Part shown: positions 3,729 through 16,198 of the stretch, piece by piece
Layout: each line of letters begins with the position of its first letter
How positions within the stretch are numbered: the stretch's first letter is position 1
Assembly: GCF_900188315.1 (NCBI RefSeq)
Contig: NZ_LT897781.1
Coordinates: forward strand, 1,612,001 to 1,676,000
From: Marinobacter sp. es.042
GTDB lineage: Bacteria > Pseudomonadota > Gammaproteobacteria > Pseudomonadales > Oleiphilaceae
Direction of reading: 5' to 3'
Length of the DNA: 64,000 nt
Made by a program: the position numbers and the translations under genes
Notes under the pieces: model-generated
What the model saw: only the letters and a program-made list of their open reading frames with translations
Databases searched by the model: none
Told to the model about the DNA's origin: nothing

Positions 3729-4765
3729 GTAACTCGAACGTCCTCGACTATTTGAATGATCCCTCACCCCGGACCCTGGGCCGCTCCGCCCTTGAGTGGC
3801 TGGACCAGCTACAAAAGCCCACGATTATTCGTGTTGCCGGTCGTGATCGCTCCCGTACCCGAGCCATGGCAACGCTGCTTCACGGCAATGAGCCTTCCGG
3901 CCTGCTTGCGCTTCATCGATGGCTGCTCGAACAGCACACCCCGGCAGTTAACATGCTGTTTCTTCTGGGCGGCATCTACCCTGCGAAGATTCCTCCCACA
4001 CTCTCATGGCGACAGCTTCCAGACGGACGTGACCTCAACCGATGTTTCAAAGAACCGTTCGAGGGAGAAGAAGGGGCGATTGCCAGGGCCATGCTTGCAG
4101 AGCTCCATAACGCGAAGCCCGAATGCCTGCTGGATGTTCACAACACCTCAGGTTCAGGCCCTGCGTTCGCCGTATCGATCACCAATGACGCGGCGCATCA
4201 GGCACTGACATCGCTCTTTACCGACCGCCTGATCATGACGGATCTACGCCTGGGGGCGCTGATGGAATATTCCGAGCAGGAGGTGCCCACGGTAACCATC
4301 GAGTGTGGTGGTTCCCAGGACGAGCAGGCGCACGAACTGGCCTATGAGGGACTCGTCCGGTATTGCTCAAGGTCAGATGTGTTGTCACTGGAAAAAGCGG
4401 ACTGGGACGTCACCGTGCTACGCAATCCGATCCGGGTGGAACTGGCGCCTGAAGCAACCATAGAATACCGCCTCGAACCCACCGGCCACGCCGACCTGAC
4501 CTTCCCCCCCGACATTGAACATCGTAATTTCGGAATCGTGTCCCCGGATGAGCCCCTGGGGTGGGTTGGCGACAAAGGCCTCGGCATACTCACCGCGATC
4601 GGCCACAACCGAAAAGAGAATATGACACAGGTTCTTCAGGTCAGGGATGGGAAGATCTACCCCGCCCAGGCCCTCAGGACCTTTATGATTACCACCAACC
4701 CGATTATTGCGAAAAGTGATTGTCTGTTCTATGCGGTCAAGGCAACGGGGGAGCCTATTTTTTGA
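3710..4765 (+). CDS. Succinylglutamate desuccinylase/aspartoacylase family zinc hydrolase
   Basis: A 351-residue M14-like amidohydrolase. The first zinc-ligand motif is HGNEPSG near residue 58, the arginine loop is DLNRCF near residue 109, the third ligand is in LLDVHNTSG near residue 143, and the catalytic-type glutamate is in VTIECGG near residue 197. The C-terminal part is a beta domain. The start overlaps the end of the GCS2-type ligase by 19 bases. The stop codon TGA (4763-4765) lies inside the degenerate outer core of the last attC site, so this gene is the first chromosomal gene beyond the integron. The substrate is unknown; N-acyl amino acid cleavage is the family activity. Confidence 0.85.
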   Translation: MDIVAVSNSNVLDYLNDPSPRTLGRSALEWLDQLQKPTIIRVAGRDRSRTRAMATLLHGNEPSGLLALHRWLLEQHTPAVNMLFLLGGIYPAKIPPTLSWRQLPDGRDLNRCFKEPFEGEEGAIARAMLAELHNAKPECLLDVHNTSGSGPAFAVSITNDAAHQALTSLFTDRLIMTDLRLGALMEYSEQEVPTVTIECGGSQDEQAHELAYEGLVRYCSRSDVLSLEKADWDVTVLRNPIRVELAPEATIEYRLEPTGHADLTFPPDIEHRNFGIVSPDEPLGWVGDKGLGILTAIGHNRKENMTQVLQVRDGKIYPAQALRTFMITTNPIIAKSDCLFYAVKATGEPIF

Positions 4766-4831
4766 CGCTTGGCTTTGCGGCGTGCCGGAGCGCCAGCGCA
4801 GGCACGTCCGACAACAGCCTCTGGTTAAGCT
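4763..4831 (-). repeat. attC site 16 (terminal, outer core degenerate)
   Basis: Inverted core sites bracket an imperfect hairpin. On the plus strand the right core is GGTTAAGC (4823-4830) and the left core has decayed to TTTGACGC, where GTTRRRY-type sites elsewhere read TTAACGC. The interior (GGCTTTGCGGCG, CCGGAGCGCCAGCG, CGTCCGACAACAGCC) is nearly the same as the attC at 9830-9901. The left core contains the stop codon of the flanking hydrolase gene and marks the distal end of the array. Confidence 0.85.
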
Positions 4832-5118
4832 GCGTCGAAATCCAGGCGATGAATACCATCCAGATTGACTGTGCCGCGAGCCACCCATAGGTCATACATA
4901 TCTTGCATCGCCAACCAGCTCTCAGGAGTACGCCCGAGAACCTTGGACAGCCGCAGAGACATTTCAGGGCTAATGCCACTATCCCCTTTGAGAAACCGAG
5001 ACAAAGTAGAAGGTGCAACGCCCAGACTGGAAGCAAGCTGACGAGAGCTGATGCCGAAAGGCTCCAGGTACACCTCGCGAATGAATTCACCAGGATGCGG
5101 CGGATTATGCATAGTCAT
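4825..5118 (-). CDS. higA: HigA-type antitoxin (cassette 16)
   Basis: A 97-residue HTH_3/VapI-type antitoxin. The N-terminal NPPHPGEFIRE motif is typical of HigA, followed by an XRE helix-turn-helix (SRQLASSLGVAPSTLSRFLKG, about residues 25-45). It neutralises the HigB ribonuclease and represses the operon. The ATG overlaps the higB stop codon by one base (TGATG), giving translational coupling in the higB-higA order. The TAA stop (4825-4827) is part of the attC core. Confidence 0.93.
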   Translation of the reverse strand: MTMHNPPHPGEFIREVYLEPFGISSRQLASSLGVAPSTLSRFLKGDSGISPEMSLRLSKVLGRTPESWLAMQDMYDLWVARGTVNLDGIHRLDFDAA

Positions 5119-5396
5119 CAGTGATAATCCTCATAATCAAGAATGTAGGCGTTGCCGTCCTGGAATTCGAACGTCATGCGCCAATTTCCGTTAACCCTAA
5201 TCGACCACCGGCCTTTGTCTTTGCCCTTCAATGGATGAAGCCAAAAACCAGGGATATCCATGTCTTCCACTGAAGTCGCCGTATCCAGAGCAGCCAGTTG
5301 CATACGCAACTTCTTGGCATGGCCGGGTTGTATGCCAGACGTGTGGCCGGTTGAATAGAACCGCTTCAGTCCTTTGTGGCGGAATGATTTAATCAT
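5118..5396 (-). CDS. higB: HigB-type toxin, RelE superfamily (cassette 16)
   Basis: A 92-residue ribosome-dependent mRNA endonuclease of the plasmid maintenance system killer family. Characteristic segments are IKSFRHKGLKRFY at the N-terminus, IPGFWLHPLKGKDKGRWSIRVNGNWR in the middle and a C-terminal aromatic-rich strand (YILDYEDYH). It precedes its antitoxin, as in other higBA loci. Such modules commonly carry their own promoter inside integron arrays and are thought to stabilise them. An inverted repeat at 5412-5430 just upstream is a likely autoregulatory operator. Confidence 0.93.
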   Translation of the reverse strand: MIKSFRHKGLKRFYSTGHTSGIQPGHAKKLRMQLAALDTATSVEDMDIPGFWLHPLKGKDKGRWSIRVNGNWRMTFEFQDGNAYILDYEDYH

Positions 5397-5411
5397 GGGG
5401 GAACAATAGCA

Positions 5412-5430
5412 TGTTGCGCATCACGCAACA
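5412..5430. promoter_or_regulatory. Inverted repeat, candidate higBA operator
   Basis: TGTTGCG (5412-5418) and CGCAACA (5424-5430) form a 7-bp inverted repeat with a 5-bp spacer, starting 15 bases upstream of the higB start. An AACAATAG direct repeat flanks it. Position and symmetry fit an operator bound by the HigA dimer. Confidence 0.5.
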
Positions 5431-5435
5431 ATAGA

Positions 5436-5513
5436 GCTTAACGCCGAAGCGCACCGGTGACTTTGACGCAGCGAAGCGAGACAAAGGCATCCGAGTGACG
5501 CGCCTGGTTAGCT
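5436..5513 (-). repeat. attC site 15
   Basis: A 78-bp site with terminal cores GCTTAAC (5436-5442) and GTTAGCT (5507-5513) on the plus strand. The interior contains the pairable arms CTTTGACGC and GAGACAAAGGC. It separates the ParE/Phd cassette from the higBA cassette. Confidence 0.88.
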
Positions 5514-5810
5514 GTTACCAAGCATGTACGCACGAAGCTGCCGCTCCTCTCGCATGACATAGAGCACGAGAACCCGCTGCTCATCCTCACGATAAAAAAT
5601 GCGGCACGGGGTAACCACTACCTCCCTGTATACCGAATTAGGGAGCTCAGGAGGAATCCGCCCGGATTGGGGAAAGTTTTCCAAACGCTCGGTTTTATCG
5701 AAAACTTCCTGGACCAGACGGCTTGCGGCAGCAGGGTTATCCAGAGCAATGTACTCTGCGATTGCGTTTAATTGTTGAAGAGCCGGCTCCGTCCAGATTA
5801 CTTCAGCCAT
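5508..5810 (-). CDS. ParE/RelE-family toxin (cassette 15)
   Basis: A 100-residue toxin of the RelE/ParE superfamily. Segments typical of ParE are WTEPALQQLNAIAEYIALDN at residues 6-25, FPQSGRIPPELPN and the C-terminal VTPCRIFYREDEQRVLVLYVMR. Whether it acts on ribosomes or gyrase cannot be told from sequence; the family name ParE suggests gyrase. It overlaps the Phd-type antitoxin gene by 13 bases. The TAA stop (5508-5510) is part of the attC core. Confidence 0.9.
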   Translation of the reverse strand: MAEVIWTEPALQQLNAIAEYIALDNPAAASRLVQEVFDKTERLENFPQSGRIPPELPNSVYREVVVTPCRIFYREDEQRVLVLYVMREERQLRAYMLGNS

Positions 5811-6055
5811 TTACTCATTTTCTCCCTGGCCTCACTTTGGCTGTACGTTCTTCCCTCAAGTACAGCACGCTCTCCTCGTGAGAGCCCCTCAAGCAGCTCA
5901 AGCCGACGCTGCATGAATTCGTAATCCTGCACATCAACAAGATAAGCGGATGGCTGGCCATGTTCAGTGATCAGTACCGGCTCTTTGGACAGATGCAGGT
6001 CTGCCAAGATTTTTGTGGCTTGGCGCTTAAGGTTTGTAACAAGCTCAACTTTCAT
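5798..6055 (-). CDS. Phd/YefM-family antitoxin (cassette 15)
   Basis: An 85-residue antitoxin. The N-terminal DNA-binding fold reads MKVELVTNLKRQATKILADL, followed by EPVLITEHGQPSAYLVDV, the Phd/YefM core. The C-terminal tail (YSQSEAREKMSKWLK) would wrap the toxin. The frame extends to a TTG at 6071-6073, but the ATG at 6055 matches the family start. A 20-bp perfect palindrome at 6080-6099 immediately upstream is the probable operator for autoregulation. Confidence 0.9.
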   Translation of the reverse strand: MKVELVTNLKRQATKILADLHLSKEPVLITEHGQPSAYLVDVQDYEFMQRRLELLEGLSRGERAVLEGRTYSQSEAREKMSKWLK

Positions 6056-6079
6056 GGGCCCACCCTGATACAAATAGAC

Positions 6080-6099
6080 AGTGATACTATAGTATCACT
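6080..6099. promoter_or_regulatory. 20-bp perfect palindrome, candidate toxin-antitoxin operator
   Basis: AGTGATACTATAGTATCACT is a perfect palindrome, 25 bases upstream of the Phd-type antitoxin start. Such symmetric sites upstream of phd/yefM-type operons are bound by the antitoxin dimer. The central ATACTATAGTAT could also supply a -10 element. Confidence 0.65.
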
Positions 6100-6118
6100 T
6101 TGCGGGTAAGGCAATCAT

Positions 6119-6193
6119 AGCTAACGCGAAGCACAGCGGCGGCTGAAAGCCGTCCGGTGGCCATAGGCCACGTACTGCTGCGCCTTGTTAAAA
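6119..6193 (-). repeat. attC site 14
   Basis: A 75-bp site with cores AGCTAAC (6119-6125) and GTTAAAA (6187-6193). The interior (GAAGCACAGCGGCGGC, GTCCGGTGGCC, TACTGCTGCGCCTT) closely resembles the attC sites at 9395 and 14323, forming one sequence subgroup. Confidence 0.88.
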
Positions 6194-6400
6194 CATTTCG
6201 ATGATCCGAAGACAGATCATCGTGCCAATACAAGCCACCATCACAATGGTAAAAATACTATCGTAAGAGTGCACCAAGGGCTGAATCTCTAATTCGAAAA
6301 ATGAGATAGCTAAATCGGAAAGCATTACAAGAAACCCAATGACAAGGTTTGCATAGAAAGCCCTCGTGACAAATTTGTCGATCAACTCTAGCTTGCTCAC
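6188..6400 (-). CDS. Small membrane protein of unknown function (cassette 14)
   Basis: A 70-residue protein with two predicted membrane helices, about residues 15-36 (FYANLVIGFLVMLSDLAISF) and 46-68 (DSIFTIVMVACIGTMICLRI). I do not recognise a family. It uses a GTG start with no strong ribosome-binding site, so the start is uncertain. The TAA stop (6188-6190) is in the attC core. Immediately upstream lies the IS element that split the neighbouring attC, so its expression may depend on the IS or on a promoter within 6400-6473. Confidence 0.6.
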   Translation of the reverse strand: MSKLELIDKFVTRAFYANLVIGFLVMLSDLAISFFELEIQPLVHSYDSIFTIVMVACIGTMICLRIIEMF

Positions 6401-6449: not shown

Positions 6450-6473
6450 ATTTAACGCTTTTGTTTAGCGGCG
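6450..6473 (-). repeat. attC site 13, distal fragment (interrupted by IS)
   Basis: The core ATTTAAC (6450-6456) followed by GCTTTTGTTTAGCGGCG is the outer part of an attC of the 10548/10995/13368 subgroup. It stops at the IS end at 6474 and continues at 7780 after one copy of the GCG target duplication is removed. Confidence 0.85.
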
Positions 6474-6500
6474 TGATCTTGCACCACTTTGGTGGACACT

Positions 6501-7286
6501 TTAGGCACTGAGCTTTTCATAATCCTCCGGGGATTGGTAGCCCAGGCTCGAGTGCAATCGCTCGCTGTTATAGAACATCATGTAGTGAATGATTTCCGAG
6601 ACCGCCTGCACTTTTGTGTCGAACAGACGCTTGTGGACCAGCTCCGCTTTCAGGGTGTGGAAGTAGGACTCCATGACCGCGTTGTCCAATGGATTGCCTT
6701 TGCGGCTCATGCTGCGAACCATCCCGGCCTTCTCCAGCAGTTCCCGGTATTCGTGCGCGGCGTATTCGATTCCTTGATCAGAATGGAACAGGCAACCCTT
6801 TTCTGGCATTTCGTTCAGCAACGCCATGCGCAACGCACTCTTGGTCAGTTCACTATTGCGGCGACTGCTGAACGACCAGCCCACCACTTTGCGACTGAAC
6901 AGATCAATGATGGCTGCGTGGTACAGCCAGCCAGTGCGGGTTTTCAGATAAGTGAAATCCCCAGCCCACTGCTGACCGCAGCCGCTCGGTGCTTCACTGC
7001 CTTTGAGTTGATTGCCGGCGGAGCTGTAAAACGCGTGCTGCCCGGGCCGCCAAGCATACAGTCCAGTTGTAGAGGCTTTAATCTCTAGCGTCCTCATCAA
7101 CCGATTCACCCGTCGACGACTGCAAGGGAGGCCCTGCTGGCGCAACGCCTGATGCACTCTTGGTGCGCCATAGGCCCGACGATATCCCTGATGCAATTCG
7201 ATAATGGCGCCCTTGAGGACCTCATCCTGCTGTCGATGAAGGCTAACAGGGCGAGTGAGCCAGGCATAAAAGCCGCTGCGAGACAC
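6501..7286 (-). CDS. IS3-family transposase OrfB (DDE catalytic subunit)
   Basis: A 261-residue rve-type integrase domain protein. The catalytic triad is visible as WAGDFTYL (first Asp), FHSDQGIEY (second Asp) and NAVMESYFHTLKAEL (Glu). The HTH_21 segment (RRAYGAPRVHQALRQQG) lies at residues 35-52. The open frame continues upstream of this start towards orfA. Expression is expected mainly as the OrfAB fusion made by -1 frameshifting at 7385-7391. Confidence 0.93.
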   Translation of the reverse strand: MSRSGFYAWLTRPVSLHRQQDEVLKGAIIELHQGYRRAYGAPRVHQALRQQGLPCSRRRVNRLMRTLEIKASTTGLYAWRPGQHAFYSSAGNQLKGSEAPSGCGQQWAGDFTYLKTRTGWLYHAAIIDLFSRKVVGWSFSSRRNSELTKSALRMALLNEMPEKGCLFHSDQGIEYAAHEYRELLEKAGMVRSMSRKGNPLDNAVMESYFHTLKAELVHKRLFDTKVQAVSEIIHYMMFYNSERLHSSLGYQSPEDYEKLSA

Positions 7287-7351
7287 ACCGAAAAACAGGG
7301 AGAGGCGCTTGATACTGAACTGATCCCGGTTCTTCTCGATAAACGCAAAAA

Positions 7352-7723
7352 TCAGTGACGGTTTTTCTCGAAGAACCGGCGCGCCTTTTTTAGAAGGTCA
7401 ATTTCCTCCTGGCGCGCATTGAGCTGCTTTTCCAGATCCTTGATGCGCCTCTTCGCCTTGGAAAGTTCGTCTTCGGCGGCAGCCTCGGAATCCGGCGGAG
7501 GGTTAACGCGTTTCGGAGAGGGCTTCTGCTTTTTCATGTGTTTGTTGGCTACCAGCGTTCCGTTGCGATGCTCCATACACCAGCGGTACAGCATCACCGG
7601 GTGTATCCCCAGCCCCTCCGCAATATCTTTGGTTTTAACGTTAGGGTGATTAGCCAGTTTAACGGCCCTTAGCTTGAACGCCAGGGTATAACGATCGTAG
7701 TTTCTTTTGTGGGTGTGCCCCAT
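7352..7723 (-). CDS. IS3-family transposase OrfA
   Basis: A 123-residue DNA-binding subunit. It has an HTH_Tnp_1 domain (YTLAFKLRAVKLAN, then KTKDIAEGLGIHPVMLYRW) and a C-terminal leucine-zipper-like coiled coil (LSKAKRRIKDLEKQLNARQE). Near the end the codons CTA AAA AAG contain the slippery heptamer A-AAA-AAG (plus-strand 7385-7391). A -1 slip here joins the orfB frame without a stop, giving the full-length OrfAB transposase. OrfA alone usually represses transposition. Confidence 0.92.
   Translation of the reverse strand: MGHTHKRNYDRYTLAFKLRAVKLANHPNVKTKDIAEGLGIHPVMLYRWCMEHRNGTLVANKHMKKQKPSPKRVNPPPDSEAAAEDELSKAKRRIKDLEKQLNARQEEIDLLKKARRFFEKNRH
7385..7391 (-). promoter_or_regulatory. Programmed -1 ribosomal frameshift site in the IS
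   Basis: The minus strand reads CTAAAAAAGG, with the heptamer A-AAA-AAG in the orfA frame (Leu-Lys-Lys). Slipping back one base continues through K-G-A-P-V-L-R-E-K into the orfB frame. A6G is the standard slippery sequence in IS3-family elements. Confidence 0.85.
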
Positions 7724-7779
7724 GACAGGCCCCCTCTAGTGTCCGGTAAATGACCGTCCACTAAAGCGGTGCAAGATCA

Positions 7780-7845
7780 GCGCCCTGACAAGGGCGTCCG
7801 GTGGAGGGCCATCGGCCCGGAACAGACTTAATGGCCTTGTTATGA
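7780..7845 (-). repeat. attC site 13, proximal fragment (interrupted by IS)
   Basis: After the GCG duplication the sequence continues CCCTGACAAGGGCGTCCGGT and ends in the core GTTATGA (7839-7845). It matches the attC sites at 10548, 10995 and 13368 almost base for base, and joins the distal fragment at 6450-6473. Confidence 0.87.
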
Positions 7846-7848: not shown

Positions 7849-8178
7849 TTAGGGGATTGGTACATGCTTGATCCAATACGGCGCAAGATAACCAAGAACC
7901 CCGCCCAATAAAGCCCCAAAACCTGCGGCTTCCGCCCCAACTCCAAATACCAACCCCAGCACCGCTCCTGCCAGAGCCCCAAAAATCAACTCATAAGCCC
8001 AGGCGTGCTTGAACACTTTTGGCTCAATGGTCGGTGCGGCAACCAAACCGACAAACACCCCAGCCGAACCAACCAAGGCCAGCCTTTGCCAGTCCCCAAA
8101 ATAGAAAATAAGGGAGACTGCCGAGAAAGCCACGCCGAAAAAGAGGATGGAAAAGGCGACTACTCGTAACTTGGGCAT
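7849..8178 (-). CDS. Small integral membrane protein, unknown function (cassette 13)
   Basis: A 109-residue hydrophobic protein with about four membrane helices: residues 6-27 (VVAFSILFFGVAFSAVSLIF), 32-48, 61-80 (YELIFGALAGAVLGLVFG) and 84-101 (GFGALLGGVLGYLAPYW). Glycine-rich helices suggest tight packing. No family is recognised. The TAA stop is four bases beyond the attC core. Its attC is the one split by the IS, so this cassette may no longer be excisable unless the IS leaves. Confidence 0.7.
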   Translation of the reverse strand: MPKLRVVAFSILFFGVAFSAVSLIFYFGDWQRLALVGSAGVFVGLVAAPTIEPKVFKHAWAYELIFGALAGAVLGLVFGVGAEAAGFGALLGGVLGYLAPYWIKHVPIP

Positions 8179-8193: not shown

Positions 8194-8251
8194 TCATAAC
8201 GCTAAACGAAGCGGCGCGTCTCACGCGTCCGACTTCCGTGACTGGTTAGGA
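8194..8251 (-). repeat. attC site 12
   Basis: A short 58-bp site with cores TCATAAC (8194-8200) and GTTAGGA (8245-8251). The interior GCGGCGCGTCTCACGCGTCCG gives a self-pairing arm. Confidence 0.8.
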
Positions 8252-8739
8252 GCGTCGTACTCATAGAGATTCGATAACTCCTCCACCCCTTCTGCAGTAC
8301 CACTTAAATAGAAGCTAACACCCGGACAGAATCTCAACATCCAATTCTCAACGTCGGTGCTCAACAGCCCGCCGAAAAAGAGGGCGTCATCGACCAACAG
8401 CTTTTCAACTCCCAAAAGATCAGATTTTTTGTAAGTTCGGCTGGATCCGAAGAGTGGTTTGATTTGAATGCATCCATTTATCGACAACTCCCGGGCGACT
8501 CTTCGAGAGCGCCAAAGTATTCGTAAGGCTCTAAAGGCAATCCAGAGAAAAAATGCGCACGATGCGATACCGATAATAAAAACCAGGGTGCTTCGAGCTG
8601 ACTCAAATTGAAAGAAATCGGGACTGAAAATGGCAAAGAGTCCCTTGATAACAGTTATCAACGCCGCGAGAATTCCTAGCGGCAAAAAATAAAACCACAA
8701 TCCCCTTCGACCAAACCGTGTATCGGTAATCTTTATCAT
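8221..8739 (-). CDS. Two-helix membrane protein, unknown function (cassette 12)
   Basis: About 172 residues. It has two hydrophobic segments, roughly residues 14-38 (FYFLPLGILAALITVIKGLFAI) and 48-70 (LVFIIGIASCAFFLWIAFRAL), followed by a soluble domain resembling PH-like membrane-protein tails (IQIKPLFGSSRTYKKSDLLGVEKL); no family assignment is certain. I chose the ATG at 8739 because GGAAG lies 5 bases upstream; an ATG at 8751 is also possible. The reading frame runs deep into the attC, which encodes the last residues. Confidence 0.68.
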   Translation of the reverse strand: MIKITDTRFGRRGLWFYFLPLGILAALITVIKGLFAIFSPDFFQFESARSTLVFIIGIASCAFFLWIAFRALRILWRSRRVARELSINGCIQIKPLFGSSRTYKKSDLLGVEKLLVDDALFFGGLLSTDVENWMLRFCPGVSFYLSGTAEGVEELSNLYEYDAPNQSRKSDA

Positions 8740-8764
8740 CAGTGCTTCCATGCCGAAGTAAGGT

Positions 8765-8825
8765 TCCTAACGCCGTACATCAGCCGCGTGCGTCTTCGCA
8801 CGTCGGCTGGATGGATTTGTTAGGG
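8765..8825 (-). repeat. attC site 11
   Basis: A 61-bp site with cores TCCTAAC (8765-8771) and GTTAGGG (8819-8825). The interior has a strong hairpin, CAGCCGCGTGCG-TCTT-CGCACGTCGGCTG. The cassette 11 gene is read through it. Confidence 0.85.
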
Positions 8826-9379
8826 CTTTCGGTAGTCCCACACGCCAGTGCAACCTCAAGACCCTCGTTGTTGAAGAATTTTAAACCAAGGGGCCCAACA
8901 TAAATGGAAACTTGTTTCAGGTCGCTAGAGCAATCGCATGCCGAGTAGTTAGGTTGAAATTGGAAGTGCGTGATTTCTTGGCCGGGTGATGTTCTTACTT
9001 CGATTTCACCCTCACTCCTATCGATCGAGACGAGTCTCGCTTCTACAGGGCCATTTCGAATACCGAAAATGTAATTCACGCTCAGTAAGCAGAAGAGAAT
9101 CATGGTTGCCGCCAAAAGTGCCGCGGCCCAAAGCATGAAAAAAGCCTGAACCGTTGGAGTCTCCTGCCAAAAAGCGGACCACTTCGAGCGAGTGTACCTG
9201 TATAAAAGAAATAGAAGTGGAAATGAACCAGCCAATACTGCCAGGCCGGACCTCCATTCCTCTGCCGTATACAAGAAGCTCAGACCATATGACGGCGCAA
9301 TCAGAATCACACAGGTTATGACAAAGCGCCGCCCTGAATTTATCTCGGAGGCTGCATTTTGATCAGGTTGACTTGCCAT
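8780..9379 (-). CDS. Membrane protein with attC-encoded C-terminus (cassette 11)
   Basis: A 199-residue protein with about three or four helices in the first 110 residues (FVITCVILIAPSYGLSFLY, LAVLAGSFPLLFLLY, FFMLWAAALLAATMILFCLL), then a soluble domain with a Cys-x-Cys pair (YSACDCSSD). The last 14 residues (PNKSIQPTCEDARG) are encoded by the attC itself; NKSIQPT-type tails are a known mark of cassette proteins. No function is recognised. The ATG at 9379 has only a weak ribosome-binding site. Confidence 0.7.
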   Translation of the reverse strand: MASQPDQNAASEINSGRRFVITCVILIAPSYGLSFLYTAEEWRSGLAVLAGSFPLLFLLYRYTRSKWSAFWQETPTVQAFFMLWAAALLAATMILFCLLSVNYIFGIRNGPVEARLVSIDRSEGEIEVRTSPGQEITHFQFQPNYSACDCSSDLKQVSIYVGPLGLKFFNNEGLEVALACGTTESPNKSIQPTCEDARG

Positions 9380-9394: not shown

Positions 9395-9473
9395 CCCTAA
9401 CGCCGAAGCACAGCGGCGCCACGACAGTGGCGTCCGGCGGCCTTCGGCCGCGTACTGCTGCGACTTGTTAAAA
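9395..9473 (-). repeat. attC site 10
   Basis: A 79-bp site with cores CCCTAAC (9395-9401) and GTTAAAA (9467-9473). The interior GCCGAAGCACAGCGGCG and GGCCTTCGGCC hairpin places it with the 6119 and 14323 sites. Confidence 0.88.
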
Positions 9474-9829: not shown

Positions 9830-9901
9830 TTTTAACGCTCTGGCTTTGCGGCGCACCGGAGCGCCAGCGTAGGTGCGTCCGACAACAGCCAATTGTTAGC
9901 T
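9830..9901 (-). repeat. attC site 9
   Basis: A 72-bp site with cores TTTTAAC (9830-9836) and GTTAGCT (9895-9901). The interior GGCTTTGCGGCGCACCGGAG and CGTCCGACAACAGCC are almost identical to the terminal attC at 4763-4831. Confidence 0.88.
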
Positions 9902-10547: not shown

Positions 10548-10634
10548 AGCTAACGCCGGCCATAAGCGGCGCCCTGACAAGGGCGTCCGGTGGAGGGCCA
10601 TCGGCCCGGAACAGACTTAATGGCATTGTTAACT
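10548..10634 (-). repeat. attC site 8
   Basis: An 87-bp site with cores AGCTAAC (10548-10554) and GTTAACT (10628-10634). The interior CCCTGACAAGGGCGTCCGGT is shared with sites 13, 7 and 3. Confidence 0.9.
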
Positions 10635-10979
10635 GGCATGAGGCACGTAACCCTCGAACTCCCACCCAAGGGTTCGGGATAATTTACTGGAAACCTCGCC
10701 CCAGTCCGAACCCGTACATTGGGTAACCAGCTTATTAACTGCTTCCTCTATACCTGCCCAAGAAAACTCTGGAAGAAGTAAGTAGCCTCTCAGCCACGCC
10801 GGAGCGGGCAAAGATTTGACGGCAGCTGGTGTAACCACCTCGAAAGAGAAAACCTCAGCCCCTTCACTTTCAGAGGGTCCGACTTCCACCTCTATCAAGA
10901 CACAACAATTTTCGGGATTGTCCGGAAGTGAACCGTAGTCCAAATCCGGGCTCATGATACTTTTGACCCGAGCGTACAT
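10629..10979 (-). CDS. Imm8-like immunity protein (cassette 8)
   Basis: A 116-residue soluble protein resembling the Imm8 family of polymorphic-toxin immunity proteins: N-terminal MYARVKSIMSPDLDYGSLPD, then PENCCVLIEVEVGPSESEG, FSFEVVTPAAVKS and a closing segment LGWEFEGY. I chose the ATG at 10979 because AAAGGA lies 8 bases upstream; the longer frame starts in the preceding attC. The TAA stop (10629-10631) is in the attC core. No cognate toxin is visible in the window, so it would be an orphan immunity gene protecting against neighbours. The family call is by pattern and needs a profile search. Confidence 0.72.
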   Translation of the reverse strand: MYARVKSIMSPDLDYGSLPDNPENCCVLIEVEVGPSESEGAEVFSFEVVTPAAVKSLPAPAWLRGYLLLPEFSWAGIEEAVNKLVTQCTGSDWGEVSSKLSRTLGWEFEGYVPHAS

Positions 10980-10994
10980 TGCTGATCCTTTGCT

Positions 10995-11078
10995 AGTTAA
11001 CGCCAAGCTAAGCGGCGCCCTGACAAGGGCGTCCGGTGGAGGCCAAAGGCCGGAACAAACTTAAGCGCCTTGTTAAAT
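10995..11078 (-). repeat. attC site 7
   Basis: An 84-bp site with cores AGTTAAC (10995-11001) and GTTAAAT (11072-11078). The interior CCCTGACAAGGGCGTCCGGT and GGCCAAAGGCC mark the same subgroup as sites 3, 8 and 13. Confidence 0.9.
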
Positions 11079-11363
11079 TCAGCCTGACTCATTGCCATAG
11101 AGCCTGGCCCCGTAAACGATGTGCAAATAGAAAAGAAGCGGAACAAAAATGAGCAACGCTAAACCAACGATCCCCTGATGCTCTAGGGATTGCCTATATG
11201 TCGGTTTGATAGCTCCAAGGGAAACCGCGTAAAACACTAGTCTCGATACTGCAATGAAGGGCCAAGCCACAAGCAGAAATAGTATCCACAACACTGAAGC
11301 CACAACAAAAGCTTGGGCAAGCGACTCCAGAGTGCTGATGAGTCCCGAACTAGTGTCTTGCAT
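11079..11363 (-). CDS. Small membrane protein, unknown function (cassette 7)
   Basis: A 94-residue protein with two long hydrophobic stretches, about residues 17-50 (FVVASVLWILFLLVAWPFIA) and 66-88 (GIVGLALLIFVPLLFYLHIV). The start is the ATG at 11363 with AGGGA upstream; the longer frame begins inside the neighbouring attC. The stop is a TGA just after the attC core. No family is recognised. Confidence 0.68.
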   Translation of the reverse strand: MQDTSSGLISTLESLAQAFVVASVLWILFLLVAWPFIAVSRLVFYAVSLGAIKPTYRQSLEHQGIVGLALLIFVPLLFYLHIVYGARLYGNESG

Positions 11364-11375
11364 AAGATCCCTAAA

Positions 11376-11459
11376 ATTTAACGCTTGCAGCATGCGCGGC
11401 TACGAAATGAAGCCGAAGGCGCAATGTAGTAGGCGTCGCCGTGCCTGCATTTGTTAGAG
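11376..11459 (-). repeat. attC site 6
   Basis: An 84-bp site with cores ATTTAAC (11376-11382) and GTTAGAG (11453-11459). The interior is divergent from the three main subgroups (GCGCGGCTACGAAATGAAGC, GGCGTCGCCGTGCC). Confidence 0.8.
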
Positions 11460-12038
11460 TTGATCTTTATTGTATGTAAGACCTTTAACCACATATCCAA
11501 GCTCAGATCTCTTAACTCGCAACTCAACTTCTATTCCTCGATCAGGAAGAAAATTATACTCTCGCTCAGATATACAGTAAAAAAACAAATGACGGCTAAA
11601 TGCCTCAAATTCTAGTCGATGAGTACAACTCCATCCCCGCCGACTAATCCCCGATTGTTTTTTTACTTCACTGGTCAAAGTTGCATCTTCGCCAAAAATC
11701 TCCGTAAACAACTTGGGAACCAAAAACGCCGAATTCATCCACATCAACCAAAAAAAGAACACGGGCCCTCCCAGAAATAAAAGGACTTCTTTAAAACCTC
11801 TTGGGTAAAGGCTAGATTCACGAAACGGACAAAAAATTCCCTTTATATAAAAGCACAAAAAAATCAAGTACAAAAATATGACTAAAAATAACGCTATATA
11901 TATGGATATCTCAAAAGTCACAGGATCGACCACAAAATCATGTGAAAACAACGCAAAAAATAATCCAATACTTGATACTGCTGTAATCCATCCTAAAACT
12001 TTATGATCTAATGAATAGCTCTCTCTCGCTATAGTCAT
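11454..12038 (-). CDS. Membrane protein, unknown function (cassette 6)
   Basis: A 194-residue protein starting MTIARESYSLDHK with AAGGA 7 bases upstream of the ATG at 12038. It has three or four helices (WITAVSSIGLFFALF, ISIYIALFLVIFLYLIFLCF, VLLFLGGPVFFFWLMWM), then a soluble C-terminal domain (HRLEFEAFSRHLFFYC, EVELRVKRSELGYVVKG). The TAA stop (11454-11456) lies in the attC core. Base composition is markedly AT-rich compared with the flanking chromosome, indicating foreign origin. The function is unknown. Confidence 0.72.
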   Translation of the reverse strand: MTIARESYSLDHKVLGWITAVSSIGLFFALFSHDFVVDPVTFEISIYIALFLVIFLYLIFLCFYIKGIFCPFRESSLYPRGFKEVLLFLGGPVFFFWLMWMNSAFLVPKLFTEIFGEDATLTSEVKKQSGISRRGWSCTHRLEFEAFSRHLFFYCISEREYNFLPDRGIEVELRVKRSELGYVVKGLTYNKDQL

Positions 12039-12055: not shown

Positions 12056-12115
12056 CTCTAACGCCAGCGGCAGGGGCGCGACGTAAGGAGCGTCCCTTGA
12101 CCGCATTTGTTATGA
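12056..12115 (-). repeat. attC site 5
   Basis: A short 60-bp site with cores CTCTAAC (12056-12062) and GTTATGA (12109-12115), and the interior GCCAGCGGCAGGGGCGCGAC, GGAGCGTCCC. Confidence 0.8.
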
Positions 12116-12213
12116 GTGCGCCGTAATTAAAATTGGGCACGGAAATCGCAATCGACTTCCAAACAGACCATACAACTAATAGCCATTAATCGAATCAGAT
12201 GACCCGTAAAATA

Positions 12214-12915
12214 CTAAAAGGCTCTCGTACAGTCTTGCGCGGTAACATTTTCCAGACTGGTAGTTTGTCCACGATCCATCAGATACTGCATAAAGGACTC
12301 ACCATTTGGACCGATCTCCAAACAAGGATTGGCTCCATGCTCCAGAAGGACCTCTACACATTTAAGACCACATTTCCCCCGCTCATAGGCCAGAAATAGC
12401 GCTGACAGGCCATTTTCAGGCCTAAAATTAACATCCGCGTTTGAATTACTGATAACGAATTTGAGAGTGCCTTCACTTATGGAGCGGAGCATACCTGTGA
12501 AAGCGGTAAATTGGTTAACGTACATCAATCTATTCAAGTCAGGATTCTGCGCCAGCACTGGTTTAAGAAATTGCAGATCATTTTTGAGTGAGACGTAAGT
12601 GGCAAAATACATGTTGTCTTTCAGTTTATGGTCAACATTTCCGCCAGCTTGAATAAGATCTTCCAAGATTGCAGCCCTCCCGAAACCAACCGAAAGGCGC
12701 ATCAAATTTCGAGGCTCACCAAGTTTATAATTGGGATCCAGGCCTTGGCTCAACAATTCCTGCACTCTTGGCCTATTACCTTCCTTAATTGCGGCGAAAG
12801 CTTCTTTACTCAGTTGCTCTTGAATATTTTTCGCATAGGTTGTCGTCGGGGACACAAATGTCCCAAATAAAATAAGAATTGTTGCCGCGAATCCCAGAGA
12901 CCTATCCGATAGCAC
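12214..12915 (-). CDS. Exported ankyrin-repeat protein (cassette 5)
   Basis: A 233-residue protein with a signal peptide (residues 1-28, LGFAATILILFGTFVSPTTTYA). Ankyrin-type repeats follow, for example AAIKEGNRPRVQELLSQGLD, AILEDLIQAGGNVDHKL, and GLSALFLAYERGKCGLKCVEVLLEHGANPCLE. Ankyrin repeats bind other proteins; the partner is unknown. The start is a GTG at 12915 with AGGAG 8 bases upstream. The stop is about 100 bases before the attC, and I see no gene in that 12116-12213 spacer. The gene is AT-rich compared with the chromosome. Confidence 0.8.
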   Translation of the reverse strand: MLSDRSLGFAATILILFGTFVSPTTTYAKNIQEQLSKEAFAAIKEGNRPRVQELLSQGLDPNYKLGEPRNLMRLSVGFGRAAILEDLIQAGGNVDHKLKDNMYFATYVSLKNDLQFLKPVLAQNPDLNRLMYVNQFTAFTGMLRSISEGTLKFVISNSNADVNFRPENGLSALFLAYERGKCGLKCVEVLLEHGANPCLEIGPNGESFMQYLMDRGQTTSLENVTAQDCTRAF

Positions 12916-12939: not shown

Positions 12940-13257
12940 TTACTCATAACGAAATATGTTCACGTGCCGGAGCGAAGCGCAGGTCGCGTGCAACGTGTTG
13001 TTAAACGGAACGTCCAGAAAGACTGTCATATTGCTCTTAGTCACAGGCCACTCCATACCCTGAAGACACCCCTGGGAAGCTCTCAGGCCAATCGTCAGCG
13101 CGGGCAACCAAGACGAGAAGGCACTCAACAAAGGCGACCACGATCGAGGATTGATCGGCTTTCCCTCAAGAACCAGAGCAGACGCATCAAGCCGCGACTT
13201 ATGCGTCTGCTCTGGTTCTTGAGGGTAGCAAGGAGAGCGCTCAACGGCGATCCGCAT
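12940..13257 (-). CDS. Doubtful 105-codon ORF in the hairpin cassette (cassette 4)
   Basis: An open frame starting ATG at 13257, 40 bases after a LexA-type box. The first third is encoded across the perfect hairpin at 13163-13225. The middle reads SWSPLLSAFSSWLPALTIG and MEWPVTKSNMTVFLDVPF. The frame runs through the whole attC (NNTLHATCASLRHVN) and stops beyond it, unlike the other cassette genes. There is no clear ribosome-binding site. Either the product has an attC-encoded tail or the cassette works as RNA. No family is recognised. Confidence 0.35.
   Translation of the reverse strand: MRIAVERSPCYPQEPEQTHKSRLDASALVLEGKPINPRSWSPLLSAFSSWLPALTIGLRASQGCLQGMEWPVTKSNMTVFLDVPFNNTLHATCASLRHVNIFRYE
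12944..13006 (-). repeat. attC site 4
   Basis: A 63-bp site with cores TCATAAC (12944-12950) and GTTAAAC (13000-13006), and the interior CACGTGCCGGAGCGAAGCGC, GGTCGCGTGCAACG. It closes the hairpin cassette. Confidence 0.83.
13163..13225. repeat. 25-bp perfect inverted repeat with 13-nt loop (cassette 4)
   Basis: The left arm 13163-13187 begins CCCTCAAGAACCAGAG and ends CAGACGCAT; the right arm 13201-13225 is its exact reverse complement. The loop is 13188-13200. There is no run of T after either arm, so it is not an intrinsic terminator. Transcribed from either strand it would form a 25-bp RNA duplex. Confidence 0.9.
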
Positions 13258-13297
13258 TATTTGTTTTCTTGCACTCGATTCCAGATTGAAAATAATG

Positions 13298-13313
13298 CTG
13301 TTTATCTATACAG
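13298..13313 (-). promoter_or_regulatory. LexA-type SOS box in cassette 4
   Basis: The minus strand reads CTGTATAGATAAACAG, an exact CTGT-N8-ACAG match and very similar to the box before intI (both continue ACAGCATT). It lies 40 bases upstream of the ATG at 13257 and 73 bases before the hairpin, in the direction of cassette transcription. Confidence 0.75.
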
Positions 13314-13367
13314 TTATTTACTCTAACCTACGGTGATTCGGCAAGAAAACTTTGCACCTCACCCACC

Positions 13368-13453
13368 GCTTTAACGCCAGTAATAAACGGCGCCCTGACA
13401 AGGGCGTCCGGTGGAGGCCGAAGGCCGGAACGAATTTGATTGCCTTGTTATAA
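13368..13453 (-). repeat. attC site 3
   Basis: An 86-bp site with core GCTTTAAC (13368-13375) and core GTTATAA (13447-13453). The interior CCCTGACAAGGGCGTCCGGT and GGCCGAAGGCC place it with sites 7, 8 and 13. Confidence 0.9.
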
Positions 13454-13759
13454 GCCGCCCGGCCAAACGCATGAAATTTTCGGCTCCTTCAAATGCCAAC
13501 AAACCAGATCATCTCTTCCCACTGCATAGCTGACGGTGGCACCCGAGGCTCCAACAACCGGGATACTGAAAAGTAATTTACCCGCACAGTAGGCATCTAT
13601 CACGTTGCGAGGGCTACTGAATTGGAGAAACTTCGCCTCTCCAATCTCTCTCGCCAACTCCCAAATTGATGAGTCTTCAGGTAGATCAATTTGAAGATTC
13701 AAAGGCCCCAACTGATCGTCCTGGGAGCAACAGGCTTCACGGGTAACTTCGATTCTCAT
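13448..13759 (-). CDS. Hypothetical soluble protein (cassette 3)
   Basis: A 103-residue protein starting MRIEVTREACCSQDDQLGPL. There are no membrane segments. Alternating hydrophobic strands and a short helix (SSIWELAREIGEAKFLQF) suggest a small alpha/beta fold. The longer frame begins in the neighbouring attC, so the ATG at 13759 is preferred. The TAA stop (13448-13450) is in the attC core. No family is recognised. Confidence 0.68.
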   Translation of the reverse strand: MRIEVTREACCSQDDQLGPLNLQIDLPEDSSIWELAREIGEAKFLQFSSPRNVIDAYCAGKLLFSIPVVGASGATVSYAVGRDDLVCWHLKEPKISCVWPGGL

Positions 13760-13766
13760 GTTTGCC

Positions 13767-13838
13767 TTATAACGCCAGTGGTAATGGGCGGCAACGGAGC
13801 GCAGCGCAGTTGGCGTCCCGTTGACCACATTGTTAACC
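13767..13838 (-). repeat. attC site 2
   Basis: A 72-bp site with cores TTATAAC (13767-13773) and GTTAACC (13832-13838), and the interior GCCAGTGGTAATGGGCGGCA, GGAGCGCAGCGCAGTTGGCG. Confidence 0.85.
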
Positions 13839-14306
13839 TCTGATCACAAAATGTTTGAGTTTCAAAAAGCCCAATCGGCTTAAAACCGCCAAAGCTAAAC
13901 AGACCGGAATCACGAGAGTTTGACCAGGTATGGCGGGAACGAAATCAATAAGATGCGAGCCGAAACTCCAAGCCAAGAATACGCCAGCCCAAAAAATGCA
14001 AACCTTAGAAATCACTGCACCAGTTACGTTGAAGAATTTCCCAACCAGGTTTTGTTCGTGGCGAGGGATCTCCTGCGTTTTCAATATCGCCACGACCAGA
14101 AAACTAAGCAGCACGCTCATGAGTAAGATTAGAAAAAAGCCATCGGCGGAATAACGCCAATCGAGTGCCTTCATTAGAAATGGGGGAAGTTCGGATTCCG
14201 CCGTAACGGCACCGGTAGATGTCGTTATGACAAGCACTAGCATCAAAATCGGTGTGAAAACAAAACAAACCATCCCTGATTTCAAAGTGTTCCAAGTGAA
14301 TCTCAA
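13833..14306 (-). CDS. Four-helix membrane protein, unknown function (cassette 2)
   Basis: A 157-residue protein with four hydrophobic segments: about residues 12-30 (MVCFVFTPILMLVLVITTS), 57-75 (FFLILLMSVLLSFLVVAIL), 103-120 (VCIFWAGVFLAWSFGSHL) and 128-148 (GQTLVIPVCLALAVLSRLG). It uses a TTG start at 14306; GAGGAG six bases upstream supports that unusual start. The TAA stop (13833-13835) is in the attC core. No family is recognised. Confidence 0.72.
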   Translation of the reverse strand: MRFTWNTLKSGMVCFVFTPILMLVLVITTSTGAVTAESELPPFLMKALDWRYSADGFFLILLMSVLLSFLVVAILKTQEIPRHEQNLVGKFFNVTGAVISKVCIFWAGVFLAWSFGSHLIDFVPAIPGQTLVIPVCLALAVLSRLGFLKLKHFVIRG

Positions 14307-14322
14307 TTTTTGCTCCTCAAAT

Positions 14323-14424
14323 GGTTAACGCCGAAGCACAGCGGCGACCTTGGAGTGGCGACGAAGGAGCCACGTAAAGGGCGTCCGGCGGCCACAGGCC
14401 GCGAACTGCTGCGCCTTGTTAAAG
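14323..14424 (-). repeat. attC site 1 (first in array)
   Basis: The longest site, 102 bp, with cores GGTTAAC (14323-14329) and GTTAAAG (14418-14424). The interior GCCGAAGCACAGCGGCG, GTCCGGCGGCC and CTGCTGCGCCTT matches sites 10 and 14 apart from an extra pairable arm. Confidence 0.9.
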
Positions 14425-14844
14425 GTTATTGAGGACAGCTCTCGACCTATGAGCCTGTAAAAATTGAAATACACCGAACCCAACCAATAAAGCGACCGGC
14501 AAGTTCGAGCTGTCCATATCTGTGTGTAAAAAGCTGGCAACCGCCATGCAAAATGCTGCGCCTAGAATGTACTCGTGAGGCCCATAGCTGTAGTTGAACC
14601 TCAATGACTTTCCAAAAAGCTTTGAGCCAAAATCGACGGGAATCTTCCACTCTTCGGCTTGGTTGATAGCGAACCGGTTTACTTTGGCACGCAAAAATGA
14701 CCAATAGACGATTTCCTCACCCGGTAATGCAATAACTCGAAAAGCCCTGCCTGTTCCTGCTGTGACTTGATCTATACGCAGGCCAGTGACCTCCGAGAGA
14801 TCGCCAATTCTCATTGTTCCGTCCAAGAATTGCTTCCGTGCCAT
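14419..14844 (-). CDS. Hypothetical protein of the attI-proximal cassette (cassette 1)
   Basis: A 141-residue protein. The N-terminal 95 residues look soluble (IGDLSEVTGLRIDQVTAGTG, FRVIALPGEEIVYWSFLRAK), and two weakly hydrophobic segments follow (YILGAAFCMAVASFLHT, LPVALLVGFGVFQFLQ). The ATG at 14844 has CAGGA just upstream. The TAA stop (14419-14421) lies in the attC core. As first cassette it should be the most strongly expressed from the cassette promoter. No family is recognised. Confidence 0.7.
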   Translation of the reverse strand: MARKQFLDGTMRIGDLSEVTGLRIDQVTAGTGRAFRVIALPGEEIVYWSFLRAKVNRFAINQAEEWKIPVDFGSKLFGKSLRFNYSYGPHEYILGAAFCMAVASFLHTDMDSSNLPVALLVGFGVFQFLQAHRSRAVLNNL

Positions 14845-14869
14845 AGTTCCTGTCTACCTTTAACAGCTA

Positions 14870-14875
14870 ATTATA
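14870..14875 (-). promoter_or_regulatory. Candidate -10 element of the cassette promoter Pc
   Basis: The minus strand reads TATAAT, a perfect -10, six bases before the attI crossover point and reading into cassette 1. No good -35 hexamer lies 16-18 bases upstream. The hexamer overlaps the 20-bp palindrome at 14872-14891, so a protein on the palindrome would block it. Confidence 0.4.
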
Positions 14876-14891
14876 CGAACGCGTTCGTATA
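14872..14891. repeat. 20-bp perfect palindrome beside the attI crossover
   Basis: TATACGAACGCGTTCGTATA is perfectly self-complementary. Its 12-bp centre CGAACGCGTTCG recurs at 15118-15129, just upstream of the intI promoter. It may be an operator or part of attI. Confidence 0.85.
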
Positions 14892-14989
14892 TCACCCGTT
14901 CGTAAAACTCCATTCAAACGCGCTCAAGAAAAAACAAACTTCTCTATTAAAAACAATTACTTGAGCATCATTCACCACGGCTACCGCCA

Positions 14990-15043
14990 GAGTTATACGC
15001 CCTCTCCCGAGCCACTCCTGCTCCCGCCATAGGCGTATAACTC
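14990..15043. repeat. 12-bp inverted repeat between attI and intI
   Basis: GAGTTATACGCC (14990-15001) and GGCGTATAACTC (15032-15043) are exact inverse copies separated by 30 bases. The right arm continues as CGTATAACTCCGCCA (15034-15048), which is repeated exactly at 15127-15141. The meaning is unknown; integrase or regulator binding is possible. Confidence 0.8.
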
Positions 15044-15152
15044 CGCCATTACTTTTCTAAGTTATCAACCCTATCAGATAGTTACCGTCATTTCTCATGT
15101 GATTTTTGGAATTTTGCGAACGCGTTCGTATAACTCCGCCAACATCACTCTC

Positions 15153-15180
15153 TTGACTTCAACCCAAACCGATGTACTGT
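15153..15180 (+). promoter_or_regulatory. Candidate intI promoter
   Basis: TTGACT (15153-15158) and TACTGT (15175-15180) are separated by 16 bases. The -10 overlaps the LexA box, which would give SOS repression. Confidence 0.5.
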
Positions 15181-15192
15181 ATATAAAAACAG
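15177..15192 (+). promoter_or_regulatory. LexA SOS box of intI
   Basis: CTGTATATAAAAACAG is an exact CTGT-N8-ACAG match, 13 bases before the first ATG of intI. LexA control of integron integrases is established for other integrons. Confidence 0.88.
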
Positions 15193-15205
15193 CATTCAAG
15201 GATGA

Positions 15206-16198
15206 ATGGATATGGATATCCCCACCCCGTTACCTGCACAACCAACCCGTTTTTTGGACAAGGTTCGGAGTTTCATACGTTTGCGGGGCATGGCGTATAA
15301 AACAGAGAAAACCTATCTGTTCTGGATTAAACGCTTCATCCGTTTCCATGGCCTCCAGCACCCTGAAACCATGGGCTCTATGGAAGTCGAATCGTTTCTG
15401 TCTCATCTGGTTTTGCAGGCGAATGCGAGCGCCTCTACCCAGAGAGTCGCTTTGAACGCATTGGTGTTTTTATACCGGGAATTCCTTGGCAAACCTTTGG
15501 ACGACCTGAAGTTCGAACAGTCCAGAAAGCCGGTAAAGCTCCCAACGGTATTCAGTAAGGAAGAAGCCAGCTCTGTAATTCGCAACCTGAGCGGAGATTA
15601 CAAGCTTGTTGCCATGCTCCTCTATGGTTCTGGTCTGCGTATCAACGAAGCCCTGCGCCTAAGAGTCAAAGATGTTGATTTTGATATGCAACAGTTGATT
15701 GTTCGAGGCGGCAAAGGCTCTAAAGATCGAATTACACTGCTACCGGATCGCCTCGTCGAACCGTTAAAGCAACAGATCGATTCCGCGCTGTATTTACATC
15801 AGGCGGATCTCTTGAAGGGGTTCGGCTCGGTTTATCTTCCAGCAGGCTTGGAACGCAAATATCCAAGCGCCAGCCAAGAGCCCGCCTGGCAGTATATCTT
15901 TCCAGCGCAGGAACTATCGCGAGATCCTCGCTCCGGCATTCACCGGCGCCATCACTTGCTCGACAGGACGGTCCAGAAGCATTTTCGCCGCGCTATTCAG
16001 GCAGCAGGTATCCGCAAACTCGCGGGCAGTCATACCTTTCGTCACAGTTTTGCCACACGTTTGCTTGAGGCCGGCTATGATCTCCGAACTATCCAGAAGC
16101 TTCTCGGCCACTCGGATTTGCGCACCACAGAGATCTACACCCATGTCGTTCGCAAGGGCGGTTTTGGCGTTCGCAGCCCGGTTGACGAAGGCTTCTAA
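15206..16198 (+). CDS. intI: Integron integrase IntI
   Basis: A 330-residue tyrosine recombinase that exchanges cassettes between attI and attC sites. Catalytic residues are visible as R145 (GSGLRINEAL), H276 and R279 (SHTFRHSF), H302 (LLGHSD) and Y311 (EIYTHV). The integron-specific insert that holds extrahelical attC bases is present at about 213-234 (AGLERKYPSASQEPAWQYIF), which separates it from XerC/D. The length and residue spacing match IntI1 closely, so it looks intact. The ATG at 15206 or the in-frame ATG at 15212 (AAGGA 9 bases upstream) may start it. It is transcribed away from the array, as in all integrons, behind a LexA box. Confidence 0.97.
   Translation: MDMDIPTPLPAQPTRFLDKVRSFIRLRGMAYKTEKTYLFWIKRFIRFHGLQHPETMGSMEVESFLSHLVLQANASASTQRVALNALVFLYREFLGKPLDDLKFEQSRKPVKLPTVFSKEEASSVIRNLSGDYKLVAMLLYGSGLRINEALRLRVKDVDFDMQQLIVRGGKGSKDRITLLPDRLVEPLKQQIDSALYLHQADLLKGFGSVYLPAGLERKYPSASQEPAWQYIFPAQELSRDPRSGIHRRHHLLDRTVQKHFRRAIQAAGIRKLAGSHTFRHSFATRLLEAGYDLRTIQKLLGHSDLRTTEIYTHVVRKGGFGVRSPVDEGF

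Follow-up and report, generated by a model that had tools for sequence, protein, structure and literature searches.

Integrons are usually described as one integrase, one attI site and one array of cassettes. Integrons themselves, SOS control of the integrase gene intI, clusters of attC sites lacking integron integrases (CALINs) and gene-less promoter cassettes are already known, and according to the Xanthomonas paper (PMC12444791) CALINs can be mobilised in trans. Here we analysed a 64,000-nucleotide window of the chromosome of Marinobacter sp. es.042 (G000:C1:1612001-1676000; the source genome G000 is a single contig of 3.94 Mb), which an initial annotation had described as a complete, apparently active chromosomal integron with 16 cassettes. 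The analysis supports a complete sedentary chromosomal integron at this locus, ordinary as such. It also makes it probable that the locus is the integrase-bearing platform of a distributed integron, in which one integrase (IntI) serves orphan attI arrays elsewhere on the chromosome in trans.

Genomes compared are labelled G and stretches fetched from them L; positions without a label are those of the window. The genus sample comprised 124 Marinobacter genomes, the order sample 293 genomes from 118 genera and the class sample 369 genomes, and 17 intI loci were compared (16 stretches from related genomes and the named Marinobacter algicola locus). The intI gene (15206..16198, + strand) encodes an intact integron integrase of 330 aa, which scores 427.8 bits with the NCBIfam model TIGR02249 (cut-off 265) and whose residues 14-326 align with the V. 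cholerae IntI of solved structure (2a3v) with an E-value of 1.8e-87. In this alignment, judged by eye, the IntI-specific insert and the expected R, K, H, R, H and Y positions, which we take to have the catalytic roles, are kept, as the initial annotation had claimed. No other full-length IntI was found in the 3.94 Mb of G000. The attC array also exceeds chance: TAACG..GTTA pairs number 20 in the array (some with spurious or alternative partners) against 5 in the other 53.8 kb, and 20 shuffles gave a mean of 3.85 and a maximum of 6 per 64 kb. The integron is thus real and complete, with an intact IntI, an attI and an attC array, and the check by which it might have failed came out in its favour, as the attC sites hold up and the cassettes beside intI almost all differ among the 17 related loci.

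Between the array and intI lies an attI platform unit of 276 bp (14863..15138), of which dispersed copies occur elsewhere. The unit is an imperfect inverted repeat whose profile matches its own reverse complement, on both strands, and its terminal inverted repeats are 17 nt long and perfect. It contains the palindrome TTATACGAACGCGTTCGTATA on the cassette side (14871..14891), the inner inverted repeat GAGTTATACGCC / GGCGTATAACTC (14990..15043) and the distal palindrome GCGAACGCGTTCGTATAACTCC (15116..15137), at which most orphan copies end. Beside intI, cassette 1 ends at the junction TTTAAC|AGCTAAT (14859..14871, - strand), where the identity of two copies of this cassette also stops and where cassettes presumably enter. 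A DNA search found the unit in 76/124 Marinobacter genomes, at least 24 of which have two or more near-full-length copies by a hand count of the matches listed (at most five candidates were scored per genome). In the order sample, with two candidates scored per genome, it was found in 8/293 genomes, all of them Marinobacter (1/118 genera). G000 has a second copy at 2.01 Mb, 90-91% identical to the primary one, which is not accompanied by intI and stands at the head of an array spanning 17 kb or more (satellite A). A third, strongly diverged unit of G000 lies at L212 7448-7719 (G000:C1:3407447-3407718) with two attC matches beside it.

When 43 attI loci were checked for IntI, eight had a full-length integrase, three had fragments (L185, L218 and L326) and 32 had no homologue above 29% identity. 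Among the 32, 29 gave no IntI match and L208, L209 and L212 gave matches of only 28-29%; L208 and L209 carry the recombinase of an element beside attI. The intI-bearing copies of the unit extend into the intI promoter, whereas the orphan copies stop past the distal palindrome. As a control, the 60 bases beyond the distal palindrome of 31 orphan units were compared with intI-side flanks and with 60 shuffles each, and 25 of the orphan flanks scored below the highest shuffle. The flanks of intI-bearing copies score 22-50 among themselves (31-33 for a second attI type), those of orphans 6-16. In this second type, palindromes CGACAATTGTCG replace CGAACGCGTTCG, altered at both unit ends (L121 3991-4335, L323-L334), which suggests that the attI types co-diverged with IntI. 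It goes together with an IntI about 68% identical to that of the window, is dispersed as well, and its orphans end at the same relative place. A separate alteration was seen in L208 (9524-11541), where a tyrosine recombinase gene followed by a transposase gene, presumably of an IS91-like family, lies beside the altered attI core TAGTTC|AACAG; this altered core also occurs in L209 and L225, and L209 has a similar recombinase. The recombinase of L208 and L209 was considered as the mover of attI and rejected, its position beside the IS91-like transposase in L208 leading us to read it as part of an inserted element.

A full attI unit marks the start of the satellite arrays, with cassettes abutting the core TTTAAC|AGCTAAT as in the primary array. 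For attC counts we used a folding-based detector, because a multiple alignment of 15 attC sites was too ragged to yield a usable structural model. The detector recovers 10 of the 14 intact sites of the window, so its counts are lower bounds, and it gave no match on either strand of a 47-kb control. The cassette side of satellite A has 12 attC matches in 10 kb and another 14 in the 8.5 kb beyond; 13, 8, 13 and 8 matches were found on the cassette side of the orphans L215, L223, L327 and L325, respectively. On the side away from the cassettes, a first scan found no match at any of the attI loci listed, and a second scan found one in L330 and two in L326. L161, L215, L223, L327 and others combine attC clusters with the lack of any IntI match, by which CALINs are recognised.

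Whole cassettes are shared between platforms. Cassette 1 (539 bp) has a 100% identical counterpart about 15 kb inside satellite A (L213:2720-3258), with not a single further matching base on either side. Three further copies of the cassette 4 element (429-431 bp) lie in satellite A; two are free of mismatches and the third has one, and one of the three directly adjoins the orphan attI. G096 carries two 100% identical copies of a 434-bp cassette, one at a primary and one at an orphan attI, the two units being 93% identical. In G114, where attI is of the second type, the primary array and the orphan attI share a 434-bp cassette at 100% identity, and a 370-bp cassette is 99.7% identical. G096 and G114 have one IntI match each at E <= 1e-60, a threshold at which weaker fragments are not listed. 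G000, G096 and G114 are three single-contig genomes in which whole cassettes are identical core to core. Such copies elsewhere in G000 point to recent activity, in line with the apparent activity noted initially. Exchange by IntI in trans is the reading that we infer from these sequences. It is preferred to homologous recombination at cassette edges, which we consider less likely, because the edges of the shared cassettes are the recombination cores.

Several observations weigh against a platform network served by one enzyme. At 2.74 Mb, G000 retains a decayed piece of IntI interrupted by two stops. No attC was found on the cassette side of L209, L214, L330, L174 (a partial match) and L177 (107 bp only). 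The genomes G034, G058, G093, G104 and G131 have several platforms, between which a comparison of about 7-16 kb per array found no shared stretch of at least 120 bp, and in G108 only one of six platform pairs shares stretches (87-95%). Orphans also occur in G058, G108, G111, G131 and G135, where the intact IntI is of another type or absent; G108 and G111 have the second attI type, and in neither was an intact IntI of the corresponding type found. The flanks of L207 and L323 exceed all shuffles, revealing an intI-side trace, and those of L191, L198, L206 and L329 tie with the best shuffle. For most orphans the flank control supports the boundary; for two to six it weakens the case.

In one alternative, the orphan attI units would be old integrons after loss of intI, with fossil arrays whose identical cassettes date from exchange before the loss or from homologous recombination. 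We consider this unlikely as a general explanation, although some orphans are relics of intI deletion, namely L185, L218 and L326 with their fragments, L206, L207 and L216 with relic-like flanks and perhaps L323 with a similar flank. Moreover, G027 and G034 share an orphan unit at 99.6% identity, which indicates that some orphans are inherited too. What a fossil origin accommodates poorly is that G000 and G096 have 100% identical cassettes of 430-539 bp, delimited by the cores, while the platforms that carry them are only 90-93% identical, that the same sharing recurs in G114, and that 25 of 31 orphan flanks hold no intI-side trace above shuffles. A somewhat better, still doubtful alternative is that the unit is a small mobile or gene-converting element, whose terminal palindromes are recognised by an enzyme and which thereby spreads the attI function. 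The perfect 17-nt terminal inverted repeats and the sharp right boundary at unrelated flanks agree with it. So does locus A, the site of satellite A next to a gene for a Tle1-like phospholipase, where an attI unit is present in G000, G058, G097, G131 and G133 and about 850 bp off in G074: the G000 unit shares 90.4% identity with the primary unit of its own genome but 83-84% with the orthologously placed units in G097, G058 and G131, and the grouping with the primary has a tree support of 98/86. This pattern points to conversion or repeated movement. However, neither a target duplication nor a clean empty site was identified. Among 24 genomes with the flanking gene at 75% identity or more, six have a unit within 1.5 kb upstream (G074 at about 850 bp), and no simple, clean junction emerged upstream of the gene in the remaining 18.

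The least probable of the alternatives is an ordinary sedentary integron accompanied by ordinary CALINs, with the attI-like unit as a regulatory repeat that has no function in recombination. CALINs do lie at fixed secondary loci in Xanthomonas, according to PMC12444791, and the palindromes of the unit could be operators. Against this, the orphan unit is joined to its cassettes at TTTAAC|AGCTAAT, the core seen in the primary as well, and in G000, G096 and G114 cassettes at orphan units are identical to ones elsewhere. A distributed integron with IntI acting in trans is the explanation that we favour, with some of its orphans read as relics.

The promoter of intI contains a LexA-type box, CTGTATATAAAAACAG (15177..15192, + strand; a match to CTGT-N8-ACAG), which ends 14 bases upstream of the start codon and recurs at a similar spacing in most intI-adjacent attI copies, the exceptions being L120, L127 and L222. 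From this box, expression of IntI should rise with DNA damage. The window contains four exact CTGT-N8-ACAG matches, against 0.9 expected from base composition: in the intI promoter, near the start of imuA (16765..16780, + strand), in cassette 4 and inside imuB. No sigma-70 consensus, looked for as a Pc promoter, was found in 14840-15260. The integron adjoins imuA-imuB-dnaE2 (16765-22036), which has its own LexA-type box; the open reading frames (ORFs) that we presume to be imuA, imuB and dnaE2 lie at 16623-17489, 17499-18917 and 18800-22036. The IntI of M. algicola DG893 is 76% identical to that of the window and has the same pcd-imuA-imuB-dnaE2 neighbours. Among the 17 loci, imuA lies beside intI in 11 and pcd in 13; within the stretches searched, some of which reach contig ends, neither was found in L114, L116, L123 and L125, and L126 and L127 are without imuA. 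The intI gene is truncated or broken in G003, G005, G007, G016, G022 and G028, in G005 perhaps by a contig end.

The second LexA-type box of the integron lies in cassette 4 (12947..13375, - strand), a non-coding element. The box CTGTATAGATAAACAG on the - strand (13298..13313) is enclosed by the 10-nt inverted repeat GCAAGAAAAC / GTTTTCTTGC (13263-13272 and 13341-13350, - strand), which is invariant in 11/11 aligned copies, and lies 110-114 nt before the loop of a hairpin in the rows scored. In the window this hairpin is a perfect helix of 25 bp (13163..13225, - strand). Across the 11 copies the helix comprises 31 pairs; all 341 of 341 cells are paired, and seven pairs are changed on both sides. 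The covariation score was reached by 0/500 shuffles and the number of doubly changed pairs by 9/500, while the number of further pair types was not above shuffles (468/500). Since correction at the DNA level can also keep the arms perfect, these data indicate a conserved hairpin, which is not necessarily an RNA. DNA comparison detected part or all of cassette 4 in 16/124 genomes of the genus and a covariance model detected it in 16/124, with a union of 19; five of the genomes found with the model (G062, G087, G093, G112 and G137) were detected by way of a divergent form that it does not contain. In the class sample it occurs in 1/369 genomes, its own. The LexA-type box is exact in 18 of 19 near-full-length copies and has one mismatch in the copy of G007. 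An attI core directly adjoins seven of these 19, and the G007 copy is the immediate neighbour of the broken intI of that genome. For the six divergent copies inspected, the box is exact in G087 and has one mismatch in G112, in G093, in G062 and in the first of the two G137 copies; in the other G137 copy no box is visible. In a divergent subfamily of hairpin cassettes (L175 8949-9093, L176 8853-8997, L279, L280 and L282), the arms differ entirely yet still pair, and the LexA-like box is CTGTATATTCAACCAG or close to it.

The ORF at 12940-13257 was rejected as a protein gene of cassette 4, as its ATG is lost in 3/11 copies and its frame is broken by 1-nt indels (A2). Rfam matches of the cassette to eukaryotic microRNAs fell below gathering scores and reflect the long hairpin. 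No terminator was found after the hairpin, and one promoter-like match lies on the opposite strand. Most likely, cassette 4 is an SOS-responsive regulatory cassette, which would act as a promoter with a structured leader or, in the rival form that we favour less, as a small RNA.

Taken together, these features allow a working model. IntI would capture and excise cassettes at the adjacent attI, and its expression would increase on DNA damage through the LexA-type box. The same enzyme would act in trans on chromosomal attI units that have no integrase, and several arrays would thereby share it and exchange cassettes, with the putative SOS-responsive cassette 4 often sitting at attI. In its full form, in which an SOS-controlled IntI works in trans on co-evolving attI platforms and a mobile SOS-responsive cassette in first position lets damage couple exchange with array transcription, we find the model about evenly balanced between acceptance and doubt.

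The 16 cassettes run leftwards from intI, with the protein-coding genes on the - strand. The initial view that all cassette genes face one way holds for these, and does not apply to cassette 4, which has no conserved protein gene. The 16 attC sites initially seen in a row proved to be 14 intact sites, one split by an IS3-family element, of which the presumed site at 7780 is the right half, and a terminal one with a degenerate core. With core pairs enforced, all 14 intact sites fold more stably as the + strand of the window, the bottom strand of these leftward-reading cassettes. When sites were folded together with their flanks and without that constraint, the bottom strand was the more stable in 13 of 15, the exceptions being 9390 and 13365.

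Cassette 1 (14326..14864) has a gene for a 141-aa protein without a Pfam family (14419-14844) and its attC at 14323..14424; these and all following array features are on the - strand. Cassette 2 encodes a 157-aa protein, also without a Pfam family (13833..14306, attC 13767..13838). The gene of cassette 3 (13448..13759, attC 13369..13453) is counted from the first ATG past the neighbouring attC, the listed ORF start at 13828 lying within that attC. The attC of cassette 4 (12944..13006) is followed by cassette 5 with an ankyrin-repeat gene (12214..12915, PF12796, 4.4e-10; attC 12056..12115). Products of unknown function are encoded in cassettes 6 (11454..12038, from the first ATG after the neighbouring attC, the listed ORF start at 12140 lying beyond it; attC 11376..11459) and 7 (11079..11393, with an 85% identical stretch in satellite A; attC 10995..11078). 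Cassette 8 encodes an Imm8 protein (10629..11006, PF15586, 2e-24; attC 10548..10634) and cassette 9 a LysE-type translocator (9902..10531, PF01810, 5.4e-29; attC 9830..9901). The genes of cassettes 10 (9468..9818, again from the first ATG after the neighbouring attC, with the listed ORF start at 9935 beyond it; attC 9395..9473), 11 (8780..9379, attC 8765..8825) and 12 (8221..8751, attC 8194..8251) are of unknown function. Cassette 13 (gene 7849..8178) has a weak glycine-zipper match below the curated cut-off, and its split attC spans 6451..7845, with the left half at about 6451-6473. After a 70-aa protein of unknown function in cassette 14 (6188..6400, attC 6119..6193), the array closes with a Phd/YefM antitoxin and a ParE toxin in cassette 15 (5508..6073, PF02604 3e-14 and PF05016 3.7e-20; attC 5436..5513) and HigBA in cassette 16 (4825..5396, PF05015 3e-27 and PF01381 1.7e-10), whose terminal attC (4758..4833) has the core GTC for GTT. 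The remaining cassette proteins scanned gave no Pfam match above curated cut-offs. A defence island was considered and rejected, as PADLOC on 10 proteins gave only weak helix-turn-helix matches to the HigA-like antitoxin.

The IS3-family element (6474..7779, - strand; NF033516) is inserted in the attC interior with the target site duplication GCG, contains orfA (7352-7723) and orfB (6501-7286), and is the sole copy found in G000. Its relatives on PLSDB plasmids are distant, all in the 60-80% band; one of full length lies on a plasmid of Candidatus Tenderia electrophaga (65%). Among the cassette proteins searched, clear matches to cassettes beside intI in related loci were found for cassette 1 (58%, L117), cassette 7 (78%, L119) and LysE (37%, L114). 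The HigBA proteins are 97-98% identical in L128 (9002-9570, from G007), whose intI is broken, and a DNA match of 714 bp at 91% to this cassette lies in the primary array of G093. The remaining protein matches are weak toxin-antitoxin matches or short pieces overlapping an attC.

Three attC subgroups with near-identical interiors had been proposed, and they were confirmed. Their further reading as a sign that the integron builds its own attC sites did not stand: the subgroups are real, but members of several of them recur in other Marinobacter species and so give no proof of such building. Across the genus, attC classes recur with different genes attached (window, L114-L128) and may help to study how genes gain attC sites.

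If several capture sites are indeed served by one enzyme, the enzyme would be separated from the gene stores, which would help to explain the origin of some integrase-less attC clusters and would give a chromosome several first positions for expression. It would also open the role of attI in trans to direct testing. Through a LexA-type box of its own, a cassette would tie the SOS response to cassette expression in addition to recombination.

Compared with known sedentary integrons, such as the Vibrio cholerae superintegron and the Xanthomonas integron at ilvD, the locus has the same divergent intI, attI and attC array, cassettes that are mostly of unknown function or toxin-antitoxin pairs, and a LexA-type box at the intI promoter; it differs in the extra attI platforms without intI on the same chromosome and in the several attC classes per array. 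No description of orphan attI platforms, Marinobacter integrons or a LexA box in a cassette was found in the open-access literature searched, and we regard the platform network, rather than the ordinary integron, as a new variation. Like gene-less promoter cassettes (Blanco et al. 2024, PMC11014356), cassette 4 has no conserved protein and a possible downstream effect. It differs in its LexA-type box, a term (LexA) that does not occur in the main text of that paper, in its long covarying hairpin, in its multiple copies, often at attI, and in that its promoter is predicted. The LexA box in the intI promoter is shared with SOS-controlled integron integrases (Cambray et al. 2011, PMC3108266, whose main text does not name Marinobacter), but in this integron a mobile cassette contains a LexA-type box too. 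Like CALINs, the satellites are attC arrays away from intI at recurring loci. Unlike CALINs, for which 'no attI platform heading the array' is our own wording of a feature that the satellites do not have, they are headed by a copy of the 276-bp attI unit and contain cassettes identical to those of the intI-bearing array.

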